A DNA stretch of 40,824 bases. It comes from Alcaligenaceae bacterium (GTDB taxonomy: Bacteria; Pseudomonadota; Gammaproteobacteria; Burkholderiales; Burkholderiaceae_B). A program made the position numbers and the translations under genes. Each line of letters begins with the position of its first letter. The stretch's first letter is position 1. The stretch is taken from NCBI GenBank assembly GCA_029268595.1, contig JAJUGB010000006.1, positions 1 to 40,824 on the forward strand, given 5' to 3'. Positions 8,482 through 35,280 of this stretch are shown here, piece by piece. A model generated the notes under the pieces. It was given only the letters and a program-made list of their open reading frames with translations, did no database searches and was not told the DNA's origin.

Positions 8482-8940
8482 TCAAGCCTGCTTTGTTTGG
8501 GTGGAGTTCATCAATCGGTCCAGAGCATTGGCAAAAGCTCGTCGATCTGCCTGACTGAGTGATGCCGGACCTCCGGTATCTACACCCGAATCCCGAAGCT
8601 CTTGCAGCATGTCGCGCAGGGAGAGCCTTTCGCGGATGGTATCGGCGCTATACCGTTCGCCGCGCGGACTCAGCACGAAGGCATTCTTTTCCAATACTTC
8701 CGCCGCCAGGGGAATATCGCCGGTGATGACTAAATCTCCCGCAGCGACGTGGCGGACAATGTAATCGTCCGCCACATCAAAACCGCGCGGCACCTGGACG
8801 GCGCGCAGCCAAGGTGAAGGCGGAGTACGCAGCATCTGGTTGGCCACCAGTGTCAGCGGCCGCTGCCATCTGCTTGCCGCTCTATACAAGATGTCTTTAA
8901 TTACCGCGGGGCAAGCGTCGGCATCTACCCAAATTTGCAT
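8482..8940 (-). CDS. YaiI/YqxD family protein (UPF0178)
   Basis: A 152-residue protein that starts [11 protein letters not shown], the hallmark of the UPF0178 family, a PIN-like fold. D6 and D8 are candidate acidic metal ligands. The conserved [19 protein letters not shown] segment follows mid-protein, and PRGERYS comes later. The biochemical function of the family is not established. The frame is open upstream to 9099, but the family start is clearly the ATG at 8940. It diverges from the glycosidase gene across a 206-base gap. Confidence 0.88.
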
Positions 8941-11265: not shown

Positions 11266-13383
11266 ATGACCCACTCTGTCGGACGCTGCCTTGTCCCGTC
11301 CCTTTTTCTCTCGCTAGCAATTGCGCCTTGCGTCGCTTCAACCCAGACAGCACAACCGGCGGAACTGCAGCCGATTACGGTACATGGGCTGGAGGATGCG
11401 TCACTGCTGGCCCCATCCGCACAGCGGGCGCAAGAAGATTTGCAGCGATGGCCGGGCGCAGTTAGCTTGGTGTCTAGCGAAGAATATGCCGACACGACCG
11501 TCCTGGGCTTGCAGGACGCACTTGCCAGTGTGCCGGGGGTGCTGGTGCAAAGCGCCGCTGGCCAGCAATTGGTGAAGTTGTCGATCAGGGGCTCTGGTCT
11601 GGCCTCCCCCCTGGGAGTGAGGGGCGTTCAGTTACTGCGGGATGGTCTGCCATTGTCTCGAGCAGACGGCGTGTCGGACCCCGCTTATGCAGATCCATTC
11701 AACGCCGACTACATTGAGGTCTACCGAGGCGCGAACGCCATGCGTTACGGTGCCGCCACTTTGGGTGGGGCGGTTAATATTGTGTCGCCGACGGGGTACT
11801 CTCATCCTGGCCTGGAGGTACAGGCTCAGGGCGGGTCGCACCACTACATGCGCTTGCAAGCGCGGGCAGGCCAAGTCTTTGAAAACGGCATGGACGCTTT
11901 CGCGTCAGTCAGCCGCTACCAAACGGACGGCTCCACCGATACGGCCGGCCAAGCGATTTCCCGCTTCTATGGCAATGTGGGTTGGCGATTTGGCGAGACC
12001 TCGGAAGGTCGTTTCCACATAGACCTCGGAAAATACGACCAACATCTGGTCAACCCTCTGACATTGGCGCAGGTGCAGGGCAAGCCGGAGGCAATCGCCG
12101 TGCGGCCGAACTGGCCAGATCGACGTGTGCAGACCGACCCCTACGCACGCCTGGCTTATCAACACACCATCAGAGGCCAGGGTCAAAACAGCCTGACCTT
12201 TGGCATTTACTACATTCGCACCAAGTTTGGCATCGGTGGCCATACCGTGCCTGTCCACTACGACGCGCACGATTACGGCATATCAGTACGCGGCGAAATC
12301 CACGGAACCATCGGTAACCGGCAAAATCTGTTGATATGGGGCGCCAATTTGAGCCATGGCAAAAGCCATAACGTCACTACCGGTCCGCTGAGATTCCCGG
12401 GCGGAATCATTGTCGACCCGTCCACTGCGCAGTTTGAAGACATTCACGGGGCTCGCCGAACCGCAGAACTATATATAGAAAACCAACTCAGCCTCACGCC
12501 TCGCCTCAAACTGGTGACGGGCCTGCAGGGCGTAAGAGCGCTACGCGAAACCCATATCGACGGGCTTCGACTCCCGTTTTCTGATCAGAGCCATAAAGAG
12601 TACTACCAAGGTCTGAGCCCGAAGGCCGGATTGCTTTGGCAGGTCACCCCGGCGATACAGGCCTTCGGCAATATCAGCGGCAGCTTCGAACCGCCCACCA
12701 GTACGGAGTTCTACAACGCACAAGGTCCCACCAGACCACAGCGCGCCGTCACCTACGAATTGGGCGGTCGCGGCCAGAGCGGCCTGTGGAAATGGGAAGC
12801 CACTGTGTTTCACAGCCGCATCCGGGATGAGCTGTTGAATGTATTCCCTCAGGGCCTGTCGCCCCTGTACACCTCGGACATGCTGACGTTCTACCAGCCG
12901 CGCAATATTGACCGCTCGACGCGCACAGGGATTGAACTGAATGTGGAAGGCGGAAGCAAACTGAATCAGCTGCCCGGCCGCTTGGAGTGGGGCCTTACTT
13001 ACACCTGGAACCGGTTTCGCATGGTGGACGACCCGCTCTTCGGCAATAACGCCTTGCCCGGTGTACCGCCCCACTACGGCAACCTGAGACTGTTCTACCG
13101 TCACCCCACCGGCGTCTATGCCGGGTCAAGCCTCGACTTTGCGTCCTCTTGGCAGGCGGACCAGGCCAATACGATCAAGGCGCCCGGCTACGGGATAGTG
13201 AACCTGGCATTGGGGTACGCCGCACCTGGCGGTCGATACCGCTATTTTGTAGAAGCGCGAAACGTGGCTGACAAACGCTACGCCGCCTCATCAGAATTTG
13301 TCGCCCACGCCACGGCACAAAGCCAAATTTTCAATCCGGGCCTACGCCGCTCGATCTTTGTCGGCGCCCAATTTAATTGGTAA
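11266..13383 (+). CDS. TonB-dependent outer membrane receptor
   Basis: A 705-residue outer membrane transporter that would take up a ligand with energy from TonB-ExbBD. It has an N-terminal signal peptide (cleavage near residues 24-26, CVAST), a TonB-box-like LQPITVHG at about 34-41 and a plug domain up to about 200. The plug contains typical motifs such as LKLSIRGSG-like KLSIRGSG and YRGANAMRYGAATLGGAVN. A beta-barrel follows, ending in FVGAQFNW. The start at ATG 11266 gives the signal peptide directly. The frame extends upstream without one. The stop TAA overlaps the ATG of the following sensor kinase (TAATG). The ligand is unknown. The plug resembles iron-chelate receptors, but no Fur box is visible. 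Confidence 0.88.
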   Translation: MTHSVGRCLVPSLFLSLAIAPCVASTQTAQPAELQPITVHGLEDASLLAPSAQRAQEDLQRWPGAVSLVSSEEYADTTVLGLQDALASVPGVLVQSAAGQQLVKLSIRGSGLASPLGVRGVQLLRDGLPLSRADGVSDPAYADPFNADYIEVYRGANAMRYGAATLGGAVNIVSPTGYSHPGLEVQAQGGSHHYMRLQARAGQVFENGMDAFASVSRYQTDGSTDTAGQAISRFYGNVGWRFGETSEGRFHIDLGKYDQHLVNPLTLAQVQGKPEAIAVRPNWPDRRVQTDPYARLAYQHTIRGQGQNSLTFGIYYIRTKFGIGGHTVPVHYDAHDYGISVRGEIHGTIGNRQNLLIWGANLSHGKSHNVTTGPLRFPGGIIVDPSTAQFEDIHGARRTAELYIENQLSLTPRLKLVTGLQGVRALRETHIDGLRLPFSDQSHKEYYQGLSPKAGLLWQVTPAIQAFGNISGSFEPPTSTEFYNAQGPTRPQRAVTYELGGRGQSGLWKWEATVFHSRIRDELLNVFPQGLSPLYTSDMLTFYQPRNIDRSTRTGIELNVEGGSKLNQLPGRLEWGLTYTWNRFRMVDDPLFGNNALPGVPPHYGNLRLFYRHPTGVYAGSSLDFASSWQADQANTIKAPGYGIVNLALGYAAPGGRYRYFVEARNVADKRYAASSEFVAHATAQSQIFNPGLRRSIFVGAQFNW

Positions 13384-15755
13384 TGGATACAGACCGCATC
13401 CGGAATCGCCAAGAGCTCTGCGGGGCGACAAGATCGACCTGCCAGCTCCGGGCTCTCGGTTTTCTGCGGCTGCTACACATATGGCTGCTGTTTATAGTCG
13501 CCTGCCTTGTTTTTCCACTTGCTCACGCCGACACCATTTCCATAGATCGAACAGCGTCCTGGCCGCTGGATATCGCCACTCAAACAAAGGTTTTCAAGGA
13601 CGACACCGGCGCGCTTTCCTTGCGTGAGGTACAAAATGCCTTGCAGACCGACCCGTCGCGGTTCACACCGCTTACTGATACACATGTGCAGGCCGAGCCC
13701 AGGAATGCATGGTGGTTCAACTGGTCCATTACAAACTTCGACGATCACCCCGTAACGCTCAGGCTAGTGCTTGGCCCGTTCAACGTCCGAGAGCTGGACT
13801 TCTACGTTGCCAAAGGCGGCGACTGGACGCATATCCGCGGCGGATGGGCCCTGCCTGCCAGTCAGCACGACTTCAGTTCCCGGCTGCCCTCCTTGCCCTT
13901 GGTGTTGGATGCCGGACAGACCGTGGTGGTGTGGGCACGAAGCGCGGCAGACCGAACGCGCGTAGTCAGACCGCATCTTTACACAGAGGCCGGTTTCCAG
14001 GCCTATGAGTTGCGCATGGCCCTGTGGGACGCCATCTTGTTTGGCGGCCTGCTTGCCCTTGCGTGGACCTCCCTGATGATTGCCTTGATGGCCAAGAACC
14101 GGGCCTTTTTGATGCTGGCGCTGCTGACACTGAGCATCTCCATTTTCGAGGCAGCTGTACGAGGCTACCTGCAGATCTACCTATGGCCTGAAAGCCCGTT
14201 TTTGCGTTATCGGATTGTGCCGGTCTTGGGGCATTTGAGTATCGGCCTGTTCAGCTTTTTTATCCTGGAACTGAGTCGACAGGAAAAGTTTCGGATTCCC
14301 CTGAGCCAAGGGTTTGTGGTGATGGGGATTCTTCATTGCGTGCTGGCTGGGATGGCAGCGGCCGGCCATATCCATTTTGCAGAATCCATTGCCTCCTACA
14401 GCCGCTTGCTGTTTGCGGCGCTCATGCTTGCTTGCGCGGTCATTCTAATTCGACAGGGCGCCCCCTCTCGGCGGTTGATGCTGATGGTGGGTTTGTTCAT
14501 TGCGGCCAGGGCGCTGGTGAAATTCCTGGAGCAGTGGGGTTGGTTGCCCGATTTCATATCTCCGCCCGGACTGGACAGTGTCGGCATCAATCCCGTAGTT
14601 GCCCTGCTGGGCTTTTACATTAACCTGACTCTACTGTCGGGCTGGATCACCTTGGTGGGCAAGCAGCGCACCGAAGCACACCAGGCCCTGGCTAGCTGGC
14701 AAGAGCAGGAGAACCTGCGCCTGAGCGCCGAGGTCGAAAAGCAAACGCAGGCCCTCAGCGAAGCGCTGAAATATGCGCATGAAAAGAACCGGCAGAAGAC
14801 AGAAATTCTCGGCTATGTCGGGCACGATCTGCGCGCCCCACTCGCCACGATTGTGGGGTACAGCCGGCTGATTGAAACGGCGGACGAAGCGGCCAAAGCC
14901 GAGTATCTGAAGGCCATTCAACGTAATGCACGTTATCAAATGGACCTGATCGACGAACTGCTCAACTACGCAAAGTCGGAGCTGAAACCACTAGAGCTAC
15001 GCCCGTTGCCCACTCCCATAGCCACTGTATTGAACGACGTGGCGCAACAGGCCGGCTTCTTGAGCCAGCAGCAGGGAAACCAGTTCGTGTGTATTTCAGA
15101 TGGCGAGCTACCTGCCATCGTCCACGTCGACGAGCGCCGGTTGAAGCAGGCCCTGTTGAATCTGATAGCGAACGCAGCGAAGTTTACCCGCCGGGGCACC
15201 ATCAGTCTGACCGTGGCAGCCCGCCCGGCCCCCGAGGCCCCACAATGGCTGCTTCAGTTTGCGGTGGCCGATACCGGTACCGGCATAGAGCTTGACCAGC
15301 AGCGCCACATCCTTGAAGGGATGTCCCGAGCGCCCGCAGCGAACCGCAAAATGGGTCTGGGGCTGCATATCGTGCAAAACATCGTACGCCGGATGGACGG
15401 CGAACTCTACTTGCACAGCGTTCCGAACCAGGGCAGCTGCTTTGCCTTCCAGGTGGGCGTAAAGGCTGAAGGATCGGACACCATTGTGTGGCAGCCACCC
15501 CTGCAGCCTTCGTCACGCGACAGCGCCCGCGCAAATAAGCCGGCCGCAACGCCGGCATCCAACGCTATTCCCGCGGAAGATCGCATGGAACTGGCGATAC
15601 TGGCGCGCGATGGGCACCTCACCGATATTGAGCTCTGGTTGCAACGCATCGCGAGCACGCAGCCCGACTGTCAAGACTTCATCAACGAAATCTACCGCGC
15701 CTTGCAAGTCCTGGATTTGCCGCGTATAGAAGCACTGGCTTTAGCCGAGCGTTAA
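13383..15755 (+). CDS. 7TMR-DISM sensor histidine kinase
   Basis: A 790-residue membrane kinase. The segment at about 27-49 is a signal peptide ending LAHAD. Residues 52-190 resemble the periplasmic 7TMR-DISM extracellular domain (WWFNWSITN). Seven membrane helices follow at about 208-420, then a coiled coil at 430-470. The HisKA phospho-acceptor is H481 (GHDLRAPL), and the ATPase core has N597 (NLIANAAKF), DTGTG and GLGLHIV. A tail of about 90 residues follows, with no receiver domain. The ATG at 13383 shares its A with the receptor stop, so translation is coupled. No response regulator is encoded nearby, so the partner must be elsewhere. The pairing suggests sensing linked to the receptor ligand, which is inference. 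Confidence 0.9.
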   Translation: MDTDRIRNRQELCGATRSTCQLRALGFLRLLHIWLLFIVACLVFPLAHADTISIDRTASWPLDIATQTKVFKDDTGALSLREVQNALQTDPSRFTPLTDTHVQAEPRNAWWFNWSITNFDDHPVTLRLVLGPFNVRELDFYVAKGGDWTHIRGGWALPASQHDFSSRLPSLPLVLDAGQTVVVWARSAADRTRVVRPHLYTEAGFQAYELRMALWDAILFGGLLALAWTSLMIALMAKNRAFLMLALLTLSISIFEAAVRGYLQIYLWPESPFLRYRIVPVLGHLSIGLFSFFILELSRQEKFRIPLSQGFVVMGILHCVLAGMAAAGHIHFAESIASYSRLLFAALMLACAVILIRQGAPSRRLMLMVGLFIAARALVKFLEQWGWLPDFISPPGLDSVGINPVVALLGFYINLTLLSGWITLVGKQRTEAHQALASWQEQENLRLSAEVEKQTQALSEALKYAHEKNRQKTEILGYVGHDLRAPLATIVGYSRLIETADEAAKAEYLKAIQRNARYQMDLIDELLNYAKSELKPLELRPLPTPIATVLNDVAQQAGFLSQQQGNQFVCISDGELPAIVHVDERRLKQALLNLIANAAKFTRRGTISLTVAARPAPEAPQWLLQFAVADTGTGIELDQQRHILEGMSRAPAANRKMGLGLHIVQNIVRRMDGELYLHSVPNQGSCFAFQVGVKAEGSDTIVWQPPLQPSSRDSARANKPAATPASNAIPAEDRMELAILARDGHLTDIELWLQRIASTQPDCQDFINEIYRALQVLDLPRIEALALAER

Positions 15756-15914: not shown

Positions 15915-17042
15915 ATGCAAACTCATCCCTTTTTGAATAAGGGTCACTTTTTGCTGGGCACGTTTTCAACGAACTGCTCCGGCGGCATGACCGTTTCAAA
16001 ACTTGAAGACCGCTGGACAGCGGACTGGCAAAGCAACCTTACCCTGGCCCGCATGCTGGACGATGCCGGCATAGACTTCATGCTTCCGATTGCCCGCTGG
16101 ATCGGGTACGGCGGCGAAACCAACTTCCACGGCTATGTCCTGGAAACCATCACTTGGGCCACCGCCCTTCTGGCGCACACGCGCCAGATCACCATATTCG
16201 GCACCGTGCACACCACGGCTAACCACCCCGTGGTCGTAGCCAAACAGTTGGCCACCATGGATCAAATGAGTGGCAGCCGGGTGGGTCTGAATATTGTCGC
16301 CGGCTGGAACAAGCCGGAATACGAGGCGCTAGGCCTCACCCTGCCGGACGATCACGAGACCCGTTACGGTTACGCACAAGAGTGGTACGACATCATCAAG
16401 AAGCTCTGGACGCACGAGGGCCGCTTCGACTGGAACGGTAAGTACTTCCAGCTCAAGAACACGCATAGCGATCCCAAGCCGGCCATGCTGCCGCCCATTT
16501 TCAATGCCGCCGGATCCGGTCTGGGCCGCGAATTTGCCAGCCGCAACGCCAACTTTTTGTTCACTCCCGCCATCGACCTGGAGCGCTCCAAGACGGAAGT
16601 GGCCGAACTAAAGGCTCAGGCCCGAGACCAGGGGCGCGAAGTGGGCGTCCTGACGTTCTCGCATGTCATTTGCCGCCCCAACCAGGCAGATGCCGACGCG
16701 CGTTGGCAAGAGCTCCTGGACAACGCCGACTGGGAGGCCGTCGACAACCTGGTTCGTCTGCAATTTGCCCATGCGCAGTCGTTCCCGCACGATTTGCTGG
16801 CCATGATTCGCGAGCGTATGGCGGCAGGGCACGGTGGCTTCCCCTTGGTTGGCACTCCTGAGCGCGTCGCGGACGGCATTTGCGCTTTACACGAGGCCGG
16901 CTTCAGCGGCACCACGCTGTCCTTCTTTGATTACGCCAAGGAGTTTCCCTATTTCCGTGACACCGTGCTGCCAATTCTTGAGGCGCGCGGAATTCGCCCG
17001 CCGGTCACAGCTAAAGCTATGGAAAACCCTTTGATTGCGTAA
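15915..17042 (+). CDS. LLM-class flavin-dependent monooxygenase
   Basis: A 375-residue bacterial-luciferase-like enzyme that would use reduced FMN and oxygen to oxidise a small organic substrate. The TIM-barrel family features are an N-terminal GTFSTNCSGGM, the HPVVVAKQLATMDQMSGSR region and GLNIVAGWNKPEYEALG. These fit the RutA/SfnG/alkanesulfonate monooxygenase branch. It needs a separate flavin reductase, and none is adjacent. ACGGAGG at 15901-15907 supports the ATG at 15915. No rut or sulfonate genes surround it, so it should not be called RutA or SfnG without more evidence. The following AraC gene could be its regulator, although a hairpin separates them. Confidence 0.87.
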   Translation: MQTHPFLNKGHFLLGTFSTNCSGGMTVSKLEDRWTADWQSNLTLARMLDDAGIDFMLPIARWIGYGGETNFHGYVLETITWATALLAHTRQITIFGTVHTTANHPVVVAKQLATMDQMSGSRVGLNIVAGWNKPEYEALGLTLPDDHETRYGYAQEWYDIIKKLWTHEGRFDWNGKYFQLKNTHSDPKPAMLPPIFNAAGSGLGREFASRNANFLFTPAIDLERSKTEVAELKAQARDQGREVGVLTFSHVICRPNQADADARWQELLDNADWEAVDNLVRLQFAHAQSFPHDLLAMIRERMAAGHGGFPLVGTPERVADGICALHEAGFSGTTLSFFDYAKEFPYFRDTVLPILEARGIRPPVTAKAMENPLIA

Positions 17043-17080
17043 AGTCGTTTAGCGATAAACTGGCTGTCTCTTTATGTGGG

Positions 17081-17105
17081 GGGCCCGGCGCACGCCCGGG
17101 CCCTT
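17081..17105 (+). terminator. Very GC-rich hairpin after the flavin monooxygenase
   Basis: GGGCCCGGCG and CGCCCGGGCCC form a near-perfect stem with one bulge, followed only by TT. It lies about 40 bases after the monooxygenase stop and 23 bases before the AraC start. Confidence 0.5.
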
Positions 17106-17127
17106 GTCCTCATGTAAAGGTCAGCCC

Positions 17128-18117
17128 ATGCCTACCACTCACCTATCTTCGCATCTGCTAAGCCGTTTCCCAGCCGTTCGCTCGAACGATCTCGAAGAGG
17201 TCCGAAAGCAGGTGGCCGATGTGTTTTGCGATCACGAATTACGGCTCGTAGGCGGTCAACGCAACCTCAACACCCAGATGCATTACCGCCCGCTGCAAAA
17301 AGTCGGTTACGGGCGCATGCTGTATGGGGCAGCGGTCGATATCGATCCGGGTCAGCTGCACAATTTTTTCCTGGTGCAAATACTGTTGCGTGGTGAGGAG
17401 ACCATCTTTGCCGGCAGTCAACCTTTTCGCTCCACAGCGCGTCTGGCGTCTATCATTAGTCCCACTATCGGCTTTCGGATGCGCCACGAAAAAGACACCG
17501 AAAAGCTGTTCTTGCGCATAGATCGCGACGCTTTCGAGCGCAAATGCGCGCAATATTGCGGACGGCCTTTAAGTAAACCGCTAGAGTTCACGCCCGGCAT
17601 CCCGCTTGATTCTCCGGCAGGCCGCTCTTTGCGTCAGCTTGCCCTATGGCAAATCACTCAAGCATCGGAAGGTCTTCTGTTCGACCACCCCCTGGTTGCG
17701 GCCCAGCTTGAAGACACCTTGATGCTGGCTTTGCTCGACACCTTGCCGCATAACCAGGTATATGAAAACCGTCTGCCCGCCCCGCTTACTCCGCAGTTTG
17801 TGCGTCGAGCCGAAGAATACATTCATCAGCATGCACACCAGCCCATCAGCACAGGCGATATCGCACAGCACGCAGGGGTGAGTGCCCGAACCTTATATGC
17901 CGGCTTTCGCAAACATCGCGACACCACGCCCATGGCGTATTTGAAGGCGGTTAGACTGGACCGCGTGCACGAGGTGCTTAGCGCGGGCGGAAGCCACCTC
18001 AATGTGACCCGCGTGGCGCTTGAATGGGGCTTTTCGCATCTGGGCCAGTTCTCGGCCGATTACCAGCGTCGCCATGGCCAACTGCCCTCTGAAACCCTGC
18101 GCAAGGCGCGCTCTTAA
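17128..18117 (+). CDS. AraC/XylS-family transcriptional regulator
   Basis: A 329-residue regulator. The C-terminal part, about 225-329, is the double helix-turn-helix DNA-binding domain, with DIAQHAGVSARTLYAGFRKH as the first helix-turn-helix and ALEWGFSHLGQFSADYQ in the second. The N-terminal 200 residues resemble the AraC-binding-like (AraC_N/cupin) domain of the XylS branch (RMLYGAAVDID). I chose the ATG at 17128 because AAAGG at 17116-17120 is placed correctly. An in-frame start at 17074 would fall in the terminator. It is convergent with dnaQ. The inducer and targets are unknown, and the preceding monooxygenase is the nearest candidate. Confidence 0.88.
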   Translation: MPTTHLSSHLLSRFPAVRSNDLEEVRKQVADVFCDHELRLVGGQRNLNTQMHYRPLQKVGYGRMLYGAAVDIDPGQLHNFFLVQILLRGEETIFAGSQPFRSTARLASIISPTIGFRMRHEKDTEKLFLRIDRDAFERKCAQYCGRPLSKPLEFTPGIPLDSPAGRSLRQLALWQITQASEGLLFDHPLVAAQLEDTLMLALLDTLPHNQVYENRLPAPLTPQFVRRAEEYIHQHAHQPISTGDIAQHAGVSARTLYAGFRKHRDTTPMAYLKAVRLDRVHEVLSAGGSHLNVTRVALEWGFSHLGQFSADYQRRHGQLPSETLRKARS

Positions 18118-32807: not shown

Positions 32808-35114
32808 CTAGAACTTGGCTTGGGCATTCAGGAAGATGGTGCGTCCGGCGCCCGGTATACCGAACAACTGGAAACCATCCGAACTGGATGAACCGCGCTG
32901 CAAGTAGAACTTGTCGAAGATGTTGTTGACCGTCAAACGCAGCCCGAAGTTGTCATTGACCTGATAGCCAACCGAGGCGTTAAAGAGCCAGAAGCTGGGC
33001 ATATACACGTCCGCCGTGTGACCGCCTTTTCCGCTTACCGTATTGCCCGCGGTAAACCGACGCTTGCCCACGTATTGCGCACCTACGCCTGCGTCCCACT
33101 GGTCGGTAAAGGCATAGTTCGTCCACAAGTTGAAGGTCATGTCCGGCACGTTCTTCATCTTGCCGCCGACCTGGCTGGGATCCTCGTCGTTCTCAAGGAT
33201 TTCACTATCGAGCACGGTGAATCCACCATAGGCCGACCAACGACGCGTGATATTACCCGCCAACCCCAACTCAAAGCCGCGTACGCGTTCTTTGGCGCCG
33301 GTCTGAATGACATCCAGGGGATCATCGGGATTGGTGTCTGTCGGATTGCTGCGCTCTACCTGGAATACTGCAGCCGTCAGGGATAGTTGCTCGTCAAGAA
33401 GATCCCACTTCGTGCCCAGTTCCCATGTCTTGGCTTTGCCGGGCGAATAGTTGGCCACGTTATCGTCGGCGCCGCCCCCGCTACGAGACGCCGCTGCAGC
33501 CGCTGAGGGTTGTGATGCTTGGCTGTAAGACAAATAAATGCTGCCGTACTGAACCGGCTTGTACACCAGGCCCAGGCGTCCGCTCCATACACCCTCGCTC
33601 TGGCTGAACGGCTCGCGGTTTCCGTTGGCATCGAACCACTTCACTTTGAAGCGGTCATAACGCAGGCCCGCTGCGACTTCCCAGTGCTCGTTCAAAGTAA
33701 TCTGATCGTAAGCGTAGACGCCCACGTTAGTGATTTCGGCACCGCTATTGTCGGTGTACTCGAGGTTCTGCCACGGACCGGTGTAGTGCGTATCGGGATT
33801 ACGTACATCAATGACTCGACGGCCAGACCCTATGGCTGGGGCCGAGTAGCTGCGCGGATTTTTGCGATAGCTTTCCTCGTAGACTTCCAGGCCAGTAACC
33901 AACTGGTGACGCACGCTGCCTGTGTTGAAGTCCAGATTCAAATCGGTCTGGTTGGCAACGATGCGGCCTTTGTAAGAGTTGACGTTGCTTTGTAGTCGGG
34001 GAACTGCCCAGAATCCGGATGGATACACCTCATTGCCTTGATTGTCGTAACCCCAGTAGTTGCTGGTTCCGGGATTGGGAATGATTTGTCCCTGGAAACT
34101 TGCGCCCGGTGCGTTCAACAGACGACCGCCAGTATTCAATAAAGTGAATCGTTCCGTTTCCGACCACCGTGTCTGGTTGCGTATTGACGCCTTCTCATTG
34201 AAGTCGTGCTCCACGCGCAATGTAGCGCTTTGGGTTTCGGTTTCCTCGGTATCGACATTGGACAATGAGCCCCAGTATTCGCGACTGATGCCGTTCAGGC
34301 GGTGGCCGCTACGGTTCAGGGGCACACCCCAGTCCGGCGTATTTTCGTCCTTCTGATAGAAGTACTGCGCAGTAATACGCGTGTCCGTGCCGAAGCCCCA
34401 CGTAAAAGAAGGTGCGATGCCCCAACGCTTGAAGTCGGTCGGGCCGCGTTTCGCTACGTCATTCTCGTGCCACATGGCATTCAGACGAGCTGCCGCCCGA
34501 TCGCCGATTTGCTGGTTCAGATCAATGGTGGTCCGCCGATAGTGGTCGGTACCCAGAGCCACGTTGGCTTCATAAAACGTCGTGGGCTTTGGGGTTTTGG
34601 TCACCAGGTTTACCGAGCCGCCCACTGCGGCCACACCCGACTCAATAGAGCCCGTACCCTTGAATACCTCAGCCTGCTCCAAATTGAAAATGTCCGTGCG
34701 CGTGCTGAGCGCGCTGTCCCGCACGCCGTCAACGGTAATACTTTGCTCGGCTGAGAACCCGCGAATGGTGAACATATCGCCCCAGCCAGCCCCGCCCTCA
34801 CCGGACGAGAACGTGATTCCGGGCACGTTGCTAAGCACATCCTGCAAACTTTGCGCCCCTTGCTGTTGAAGAACTTGCGAGGGAACAATATTGATGGTTT
34901 GAGGCGTGTCCAATAACGGAGCTTGGAACTTGACCGACTGCACCGCCTCGGGTTTGAAATCCGGCGCGGCGCCTTGCACTTGGATTGGCGCCAACTGAGA
35001 AACATCGTTCTGCTGCGCCATGGCCAAAGAGCCTGTGGCGAGCGTACTGCAAACGGCTATCGGCAGCACTCCCAAGCGTTGCGCCGTCGTTGCGGACTTT
35101 TTCTTGTCAGCCAT
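32808..35114 (-). CDS. TonB-dependent siderophore receptor, catecholate (Fiu-like) type
   Basis: A 768-residue outer membrane receptor. The signal peptide ends at about residue 33 (SLAMA). The TonB-box-like APIQVQG follows, and a plug domain with LQDVLSNVPGITF, FTIRGFS and VFKGTGSIESG at about 60-190. The barrel ends NAQAKF with a terminal Phe. The plug and early barrel resemble Fiu-type catecholate receptors, so the ligand may be ferric-catechol derivatives. The barrel has a low-complexity loop, QPSAAAAASRSGGG, probably exposed. A Fur box over its promoter supports iron repression. GGAG lies about 11 bases before the ATG at 35114. Confidence 0.92.
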   Translation of the reverse strand: MADKKKSATTAQRLGVLPIAVCSTLATGSLAMAQQNDVSQLAPIQVQGAAPDFKPEAVQSVKFQAPLLDTPQTINIVPSQVLQQQGAQSLQDVLSNVPGITFSSGEGGAGWGDMFTIRGFSAEQSITVDGVRDSALSTRTDIFNLEQAEVFKGTGSIESGVAAVGGSVNLVTKTPKPTTFYEANVALGTDHYRRTTIDLNQQIGDRAAARLNAMWHENDVAKRGPTDFKRWGIAPSFTWGFGTDTRITAQYFYQKDENTPDWGVPLNRSGHRLNGISREYWGSLSNVDTEETETQSATLRVEHDFNEKASIRNQTRWSETERFTLLNTGGRLLNAPGASFQGQIIPNPGTSNYWGYDNQGNEVYPSGFWAVPRLQSNVNSYKGRIVANQTDLNLDFNTGSVRHQLVTGLEVYEESYRKNPRSYSAPAIGSGRRVIDVRNPDTHYTGPWQNLEYTDNSGAEITNVGVYAYDQITLNEHWEVAAGLRYDRFKVKWFDANGNREPFSQSEGVWSGRLGLVYKPVQYGSIYLSYSQASQPSAAAAASRSGGGADDNVANYSPGKAKTWELGTKWDLLDEQLSLTAAVFQVERSNPTDTNPDDPLDVIQTGAKERVRGFELGLAGNITRRWSAYGGFTVLDSEILENDEDPSQVGGKMKNVPDMTFNLWTNYAFTDQWDAGVGAQYVGKRRFTAGNTVSGKGGHTADVYMPSFWLFNASVGYQVNDNFGLRLTVNNIFDKFYLQRGSSSSDGFQLFGIPGAGRTIFLNAQAKF

Positions 35115-35251: not shown

Positions 35252-35280
35252 ACGATAATGATTCTTAATATCCGCGTCAA
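35252..35280 (-). promoter_or_regulatory. Promoter of the siderophore receptor
   Basis: On the minus strand TTGACG (35275-35280) and TATCGT (35252-35257) are separated by 17 bases. This is a reasonable sigma70 promoter about 140 bases before the receptor ATG. The Fur box covers its spacer and part of the -10. Confidence 0.65.
35254..35272. promoter_or_regulatory. Fur box
   Basis: GATAATGATTCTTAATATC matches the 19-base Fur consensus at 15 positions, with the first nine identical. It overlaps the receptor promoter, the position expected for iron-dependent repression. Confidence 0.82.

Follow-up and report, generated by a model that had tools for sequence, protein, structure and literature searches.

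An overlapping TonB-dependent receptor and 7TMR-DISM sensor kinase gene pair recurs in related genomes and may belong to a nutrient-sensing system

The genes for a TonB-dependent outer-membrane receptor and a 7TMR-DISM sensor histidine kinase overlap in the window (the whole stretch of 40,824 nucleotides of Alcaligenaceae DNA analyzed here), and comparison with related genomes indicates that this receptor-kinase module is real and conserved, but not obligate. With a probability of about 0.53, slightly better than even, we read the two proteins as receptor and sensor within a trans-envelope nutrient-sensing system similar to PfeA-PfeS-PfeR, whose response regulator would be encoded on a different contig (C5). 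The basis for this reading consists of the protein domains, the gene overlap, the conservation of the pair, the linkage of regulator and kinase genes in relatives, and the finding of one candidate regulator. The window lies on C6, one of the 267 contigs of a genome (G000) of 3.14 Mb and 90.8% completeness, and its nearest named relatives, judged by the receptor, are Pusillimonas, a member of the Alcaligenaceae, and Pollutimonas.

The receptor ORF (11266..13383, forward strand) runs from an ATG at 11266 to a TAA stop codon at 13381-13383 and encodes a protein of 705 amino acids. Pfam detected a plug (residues 59-169, 3.7e-18) and a TonB_dep_Rec_b-barrel domain (residues 242-666, 1.1e-40) only, and an STN signaling domain was not found. 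The structural model has a mean pLDDT of 80.8 and a predicted disordered N-terminus, with values below 50 at nearly every position from residue 1 to 41, a range that takes in the signal peptide. The solved structure closest to the receptor by sequence is that of YncD/PqqU (6v81, 3e-27); a profile search returned 6v81 and 9c4o, and the closest fold is 9c4o (TM 0.81, by query length). These nearest structures suggested PQQ as the ligand, but the receptor does not have the published signature residues and this candidate was rejected. The residues named in excerpts of PMC12124388 are Y99, R304, and R365, and the corresponding positions of the window receptor (aromatic 99, Arg304, and Arg365 in E. 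coli numbering) hold L, T, and N, respectively, position 304 being less sure because it lies beside an alignment gap. Thus, although PqqU is the closest solved structure by both sequence and fold, the window receptor lacks its signature and scores 117.1 bits against the NCBIfam model NF041535 (PqqU), far below the cut-off of 1200 bits; it was under the NCBIfam cut-offs in all 21 families listed.

The kinase (13383..15755, forward strand, 790 amino acids) contains a periplasmic 7TMR-DISMED2 domain (residues 66-200, 13578..13982, 1.5e-15), a 7TMR-DISM_7TM membrane domain (residues 214-391, 14022..14555, 5.4e-18), a HisKA domain (14793..14981, 2.2e-11) with the predicted phospho-acceptor His481 in the motif HDLRAPL, and a HATPase_c domain (residues 583-691, 15129..15455, 3.1e-18), all over the Pfam cut-offs. 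His481 and N597 of the N box are kept in at least 18 of 20 aligned kinases, and the motifs that we take to be catalytic are intact in both the window kinase and the candidate regulator on C5. An AlphaFold model of the sensor domain (residues 46-212, pLDDT 88.5) matched best in the PDB to the RetS sensor (3jyb, E 1e-8). RetS itself belongs to the Gac network as a hybrid kinase. The window kinase resembles RetS-type kinases in its DISMED2, 7TM, HisKA, and HATPase_c domains and in its sensor fold, but differs from them in having no receiver domain and in being linked to an uptake receptor. The sensor domain of the window kinase is only 23-36% identical to those of the 19 other aligned kinases and ligands may therefore differ among them. 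All 20 proteins also share a conserved C-terminal tail (residues 730-788, 15570..15746) with no Pfam match; this segment also matches shorter kinases (frames of approximately 541-685 amino acids) that have no N-terminal match to the query.

The receptor stop codon and the ATG of the kinase (13383-13385) share 1 nucleotide (TAATG). The original prediction described this overlap between a receptor and a 7TM kinase with no response regulator alongside, and the ORFs, the Pfam matches, and the lack of any receiver domain on contig C6 bear it out. In 4 relatives that share this gene order (G090, G034, G098, and the metagenome-assembled genome L077), the kinase ATG overlaps the Trp and stop codons of the receptor by 7 nucleotides, which argues that the overlap is not due to chance. 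At the homologous start position the window has a TTG (TTGGTAATG, 13377..13385, forward strand, including the receptor TAA and both candidate kinase starts), with the ATG 6 bases further on; hence the kinase may start at TTG 13377, with a 7-nucleotide overlap, instead of at ATG 13383. By this comparison the overlap of the 2 genes is conserved, but its exact form is not.

To what extent the 2 genes travel together was analyzed in 268 genomes of the family, with cut-offs of 1e-80 for the kinase and 1e-110 for the receptor. The receptor clade was found in 13 genomes, the kinase in 23, and both in 9; the kinase was thus present in 9 of the 13 genomes with the receptor vs 14 of the 255 others (Fisher p 2.8e-8, a value that ignores relatedness). 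Receptor and kinase genes adjoin in 8 of the 9 genomes with both, half of them overlapping and in tandem orientation (window, G090, G034, and G098) and half as divergent genes (G121, G101, G104, and G082), and L077 provides a fifth overlapping pair beyond the 268-genome count. In the ninth genome, G017, the 2 genes lie approximately 11 kb apart on one contig of 3.9 Mb, and a large repetitive surface-type protein, assigned by eye, adjoins the receptor (L159:10870-13500). Receptor and kinase are 100% identical between G090 and Pusillimonas caeni (L075) and between G034 and P. noertemannii (L076), and G082 likewise corresponds to Pollutimonas harenae (L080). An autotransporter gene, identified by Pfam, is located near the G034 cluster (L042:2291-5521). 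Of the 2 outcomes named as fatal to the original prediction, the first, a pair restricted to one strain, is therefore not what was found. The other, that relatives carry the kinase without any receptor, held in part: the receptor clade is missing from 14 of the 23 genomes with the kinase and present in 9. Conversely, at the cut-off applied the kinase is missing from 4 of the 13 genomes with the receptor.

No receptor was found in the examined stretch at 13 of 20 kinase loci (24 receptor queries), one of these 13 being that of G017, whose receptor lies approximately 11 kb away, or at any of 6 further kinase loci searched with the same number of queries. Of 80 receptor loci, 10 (L075-L084) belong to the clade and 70 are more distant. 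None of the distant loci, many of which end at contig ends, had a kinase-family match covering the sensor domain; 11 showed partial matches, all beginning after residue 337 of the query and comprising mostly the kinase core. At 2 of these 11 loci, from Lysobacter aestuarii and a metagenome-assembled genome (L095:3274-7293 and L119:3655-7302), a hybrid kinase adjoins the receptor; with Reg_prop, Y_Y_Y, HisKA, HATPase_c, and receiver domains, these are propeller-type and not DISM kinases. The neighborhood of acnA (identified by Pfam in L043 and L156 and by matching sequence start in L038 and L039) holds the receptor-kinase pair in G101 and G121, the kinase without the receptor in G079, which belongs to the same genus, and the receptor without the kinase in G060, so either partner can be missing. 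Among 399 genomes sampled evenly across the order, some of them family members, 2 outside the family have the receptor (37-39% identity) and 2 others have the kinase alone; none outside the family has both. A kinase of the window type was not seen on the 2 extra-family receptor contigs, which are short (4.8 and 6.0 kb).

Phylogenetic trees were built for both proteins. The receptor tree comprised 14 clade rows and 8 outgroup rows picked from the 70 distant loci, without the L083 receptor. It retained the N-terminally truncated receptor of G098, whose gene (L046:7289-8602) lacks approximately the first 280 codons; the kinase gene alongside is intact. The kinase tree and alignment comprised 20 kinases (19 from the window or the examined kinase loci, and that of L077) and left out G076, G099, G119, the broken G029:C4 copy, and the copies of G101:C1, G121:C11:682244, G208, and G210, in which the match begins at or near the 7TM domain. 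A second kinase copy in G029 (L160:9171-11491) is split in 2 overlapping frames and is 73-77% like the G062:C11 kinase. The overlapping pairs (window, G090, G034, L077, and G098) group together in the receptor tree, with G109 (support 99), and in the kinase tree, with G062a (support 96), and stand apart from the divergent pairs in both. The G121/G101 and G104/G082 pairs are each tight (support 100) in the 2 trees, and the 4 divergent rows form one group in the receptor tree only, with a support of 5.

The original prediction proposed a search of other genomes for the orphan response regulator of the pair; in the window genome, a candidate was located on contig C5. None of the 19 receiver domains found in G000 (90.8% complete) lies on contig C6. 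By coordinates, a receiver lies within approximately 1.5 kb of, or in the same frame as, 11 of its 12 HisKA kinases (one of these kinases is below the Pfam cut-off and one kinase-receiver pair is on opposite strands), the window kinase being the sole exception in a census that covers the HisKA class only and a genome of which approximately 9% may be missing. The C5 gene (G000:C5:41401-42354; L074:8402-9358) encodes a REC-AraC protein with Response_reg (4.3e-23) and HTH_18 (5.5e-24) domains, and it is the one match to its family in the window genome at E<=1e-40, in a search of 151 of the 268 family genomes. Its neighbors are a gene encoding a GGDEF protein, identified by Pfam, and a partial chemotaxis receptor gene, assigned by eye and cut by the contig end; the 10 kb examined, which end at that contig end, showed no kinase gene next to the regulator. 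In relatives, a homologous regulator gene lies beside the kinase or the receptor-kinase pair at 11 of the 20 kinase loci examined (G017, G062:C1, G029, G090, G034, G104, G082, G058, G049, G134, and G023), and also in L077, and no adjoining REC-AraC regulator was found at the other 9. The regulator shares its locus with the receptor-kinase pair in G090, G034, L077, G104, and G082, but not on the window contig; the receptor sits between regulator and kinase in G090 and G034, and regulator and kinase genes overlap by 4 nucleotides in G104 and G082. The C5 regulator is most closely related to those of G104 and G082 (65% identity), whose kinases are only 36-39% like the window kinase. The latter clusters with the overlapping pairs, and the regulator and kinase trees thus do not match. 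Taken with the homologues that accompany the kinase in relatives, the C5 gene is probably the missing regulator of the window kinase, and the pairing of this orphan kinase with this orphan regulator is now testable.

The statement that outer-membrane receptors are not linked directly to kinases proved too strong. According to excerpts of PMC8001512 and PMC10281387, in the PfeA/PfeS/PfeR system of Pseudomonas aeruginosa a two-component system controls the TonB-dependent receptor for ferric enterobactin, and PfeS, a kinase of the inner membrane, senses the ligand in the periplasm after its import. The PirA/PirS/PirR system is described as similar in PMC8001512 and PirSR as putative in PMC10281387, again in excerpts of both. 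As in the Pfe system, receptor and histidine kinase genes adjoin in 8 of 9 family genomes that carry the two, the window genome included; unlike in the Pfe system, the sensor is of the 7TMR-DISM type, the candidate regulator is a REC-AraC protein, the receptor and kinase genes overlap, and the candidate regulator is unlinked from them in the window genome. PfeR belongs to the OmpR class, and PfeS is not known to be a DISM-type kinase. The FecA/FecR/FecI cell-surface signaling system also links a receptor to signal transduction, but the window receptor has no STN domain that Pfam could find, and no sigma or anti-sigma factor gene was present among the 4 other window genes tested by Pfam. We found no report of a TonB-dependent receptor paired with a 7TMR-DISM kinase in the open-licence literature, among the matches listed, and one may be published elsewhere. 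Judged by its domains, the window pair would add to the known receptor/two-component systems, with the recurring diguanylate cyclase tie described below as the most novel part.

In the system that we favor, the receptor would bring a substrate into the periplasm, where the RetS-type DISMED2 domain of the kinase would detect either that substrate itself or one of its products or carriers. Phosphorylation by the kinase would then reach the REC-AraC regulator of G000:C5:41401-42354, which would in turn activate the receptor-kinase operon and other uptake genes. By analogy with the Pfe system, it is plausible that the periplasmic domain of the kinase senses the ligand imported by the receptor, and we infer phosphotransfer, ligand sensing, target promoters, and positive feedback. 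If this is correct, 7TMR-DISM proteins would be a new sensor class among the two-component systems that govern TonB-dependent uptake.

Other explanations of the pair have to be weighed. The receptor could be merely a target gene of a kinase that senses an envelope or surface cue unrelated to the cargo, the shared operon making the sensor autoregulated along with one of its outputs. The kinase and the REC-AraC regulator do occur with no receptor in the examined stretch (for instance in G062:C1, G029, G058, G049, G134, and G023), and the sensor has the fold of RetS, so we regard this reading as possible, if doubtful; the overlapping and divergent gene orders fall in separate tree groups, however, which suggests selection for the pair rather than inheritance of one frozen operon. 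That the operon is a loosely inherited linkage with no functional tie, the true partner of the kinase lying elsewhere, seems unlikely to us: each gene occurs without the other in many genomes, as in G079 and G060 near acnA, but the co-occurrence, the adjacency, and the existence of 2 gene orders speak against it. We consider direct contact, through which the kinase would monitor the state of the receptor or of TonB-driven import instead of a soluble ligand, very improbable. Overlapping genes would favor matched amounts of the 2 proteins, and the receptor has no STN domain for signaling to an anti-sigma factor, but its N-terminus is short and, with a pLDDT below 50 over nearly all of residues 1-41, predicted to be disordered.

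A different kind of neighbor accompanies the receptor where the kinase is missing at the cut-off. In all 4 family genomes of this kind (G109, G060, G055, and G019), a GGDEF gene adjoins the receptor. The 2 genes are convergent and 54 nucleotides apart in G109; in G060 the GGDEF protein has 737 amino acids, is encoded on the same strand as the receptor, and presumably also carries an EAL domain, judging by a motif; and in G055 and G019, which are of one genus, the GGDEF gene is on the same strand and abuts the receptor. These 4 genomes contain 6 to 20 GGDEF domains each (counts cover 10 genomes), and we estimate that roughly 1% of genes or fewer would have such a neighbor by chance. The GGDEF proteins of G109, G055, G019, and L077 have in common a membrane domain of approximately 215 residues (37-69% identity), in which Pfam gave no match outside GGDEF, so receptors of both groups have neighbors from a single cyclase family. 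In L077, the genes for the regulator, the receptor, the kinase, and this cyclase lie side by side. In P. caeni, a different, dCache-type GGDEF protein gene adjoins the regulator, and the C5 regulator of the window genome is divergent from yet another GGDEF gene. With 5 cyclase queries, no GGDEF gene was found beside the receptor in the window, G034, G101, G121, G104, G082, G098, or G017, and the genomes of G104 and G101 contain no GGDEF domain. G055 and G019 belong to the genus of G104, yet they carry a GGDEF gene beside the receptor. From these gene neighborhoods, the receptor-GGDEF link is recurrent but not universal.

These neighborhoods allow a broader and tentative reading, to which we give well under even odds. 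The receptor clade could form the outer-membrane half of a sensing system built from modules, which uses neither sigma factors nor a receptor signaling domain and has interchangeable inner-membrane transducers, either the 7TMR-DISM kinase with its REC-AraC regulator or else a diguanylate cyclase in the membrane. Import of one compound would then be read as transcription or as c-di-GMP depending on the species. If so, the module of the window genome would be split, with the receptor and kinase on C6 and the regulator on C5, next to a GGDEF gene of another kind. Receptors of one clade that occur with a kinase or with a diguanylate cyclase would offer a natural comparison for what 7TMR-DISM sensors detect.

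Upstream regions were analyzed for regulatory sequences. A Fur-like sequence (15/19, a score that Markov resampling of the region reached 20 times in 20000) lies at L074:8488-8506, just before the candidate regulator starts at 8537 and 8552, and hints that iron supply sets the level of the C5 regulator in the window organism. Iron was rejected as the signal of the system, since there is no comparable site in 17 upstream regions of relatives (best 13/19) or upstream of the window receptor (11/19, p 0.46), and 2 sites of at least 15/19 occur in 375 kb of relatives' loci. Iron control is thus a lead for the C5 regulator only, and the Fur-like site may act on the divergent GGDEF gene as well. The Fur-like sequence between these 2 genes contains a perfect 9-bp inverted repeat, ATGATAATC/GATTATCAT (L074:8488-8514, G000:C5). 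Pairwise alignment and a search for direct repeats revealed no shared operator upstream of the receptors. A promoter scan found 3 sites vs 2.7 expected by chance, and terminator-like sites numbered 13 vs 7.8. Downstream of the kinase, the window encodes an LLM-class flavin monooxygenase (15915-17042; nearest to SfnG and RutA, below the cut-offs) and an AraC-type regulator (17074-18117; nearest to AndR, below the cut-off), which were left out as operon members because of a 159-nucleotide gap and because they are unmatched in the 20 kinase loci. A second TonB-dependent receptor is encoded in the window on the reverse strand (32808-35114), and upstream of it is a Fur-box-like sequence (35254-35272, 16/19, GATAATGATTCTTAATATC), the sole place in the window with at least 14/19 Fur-box matches.
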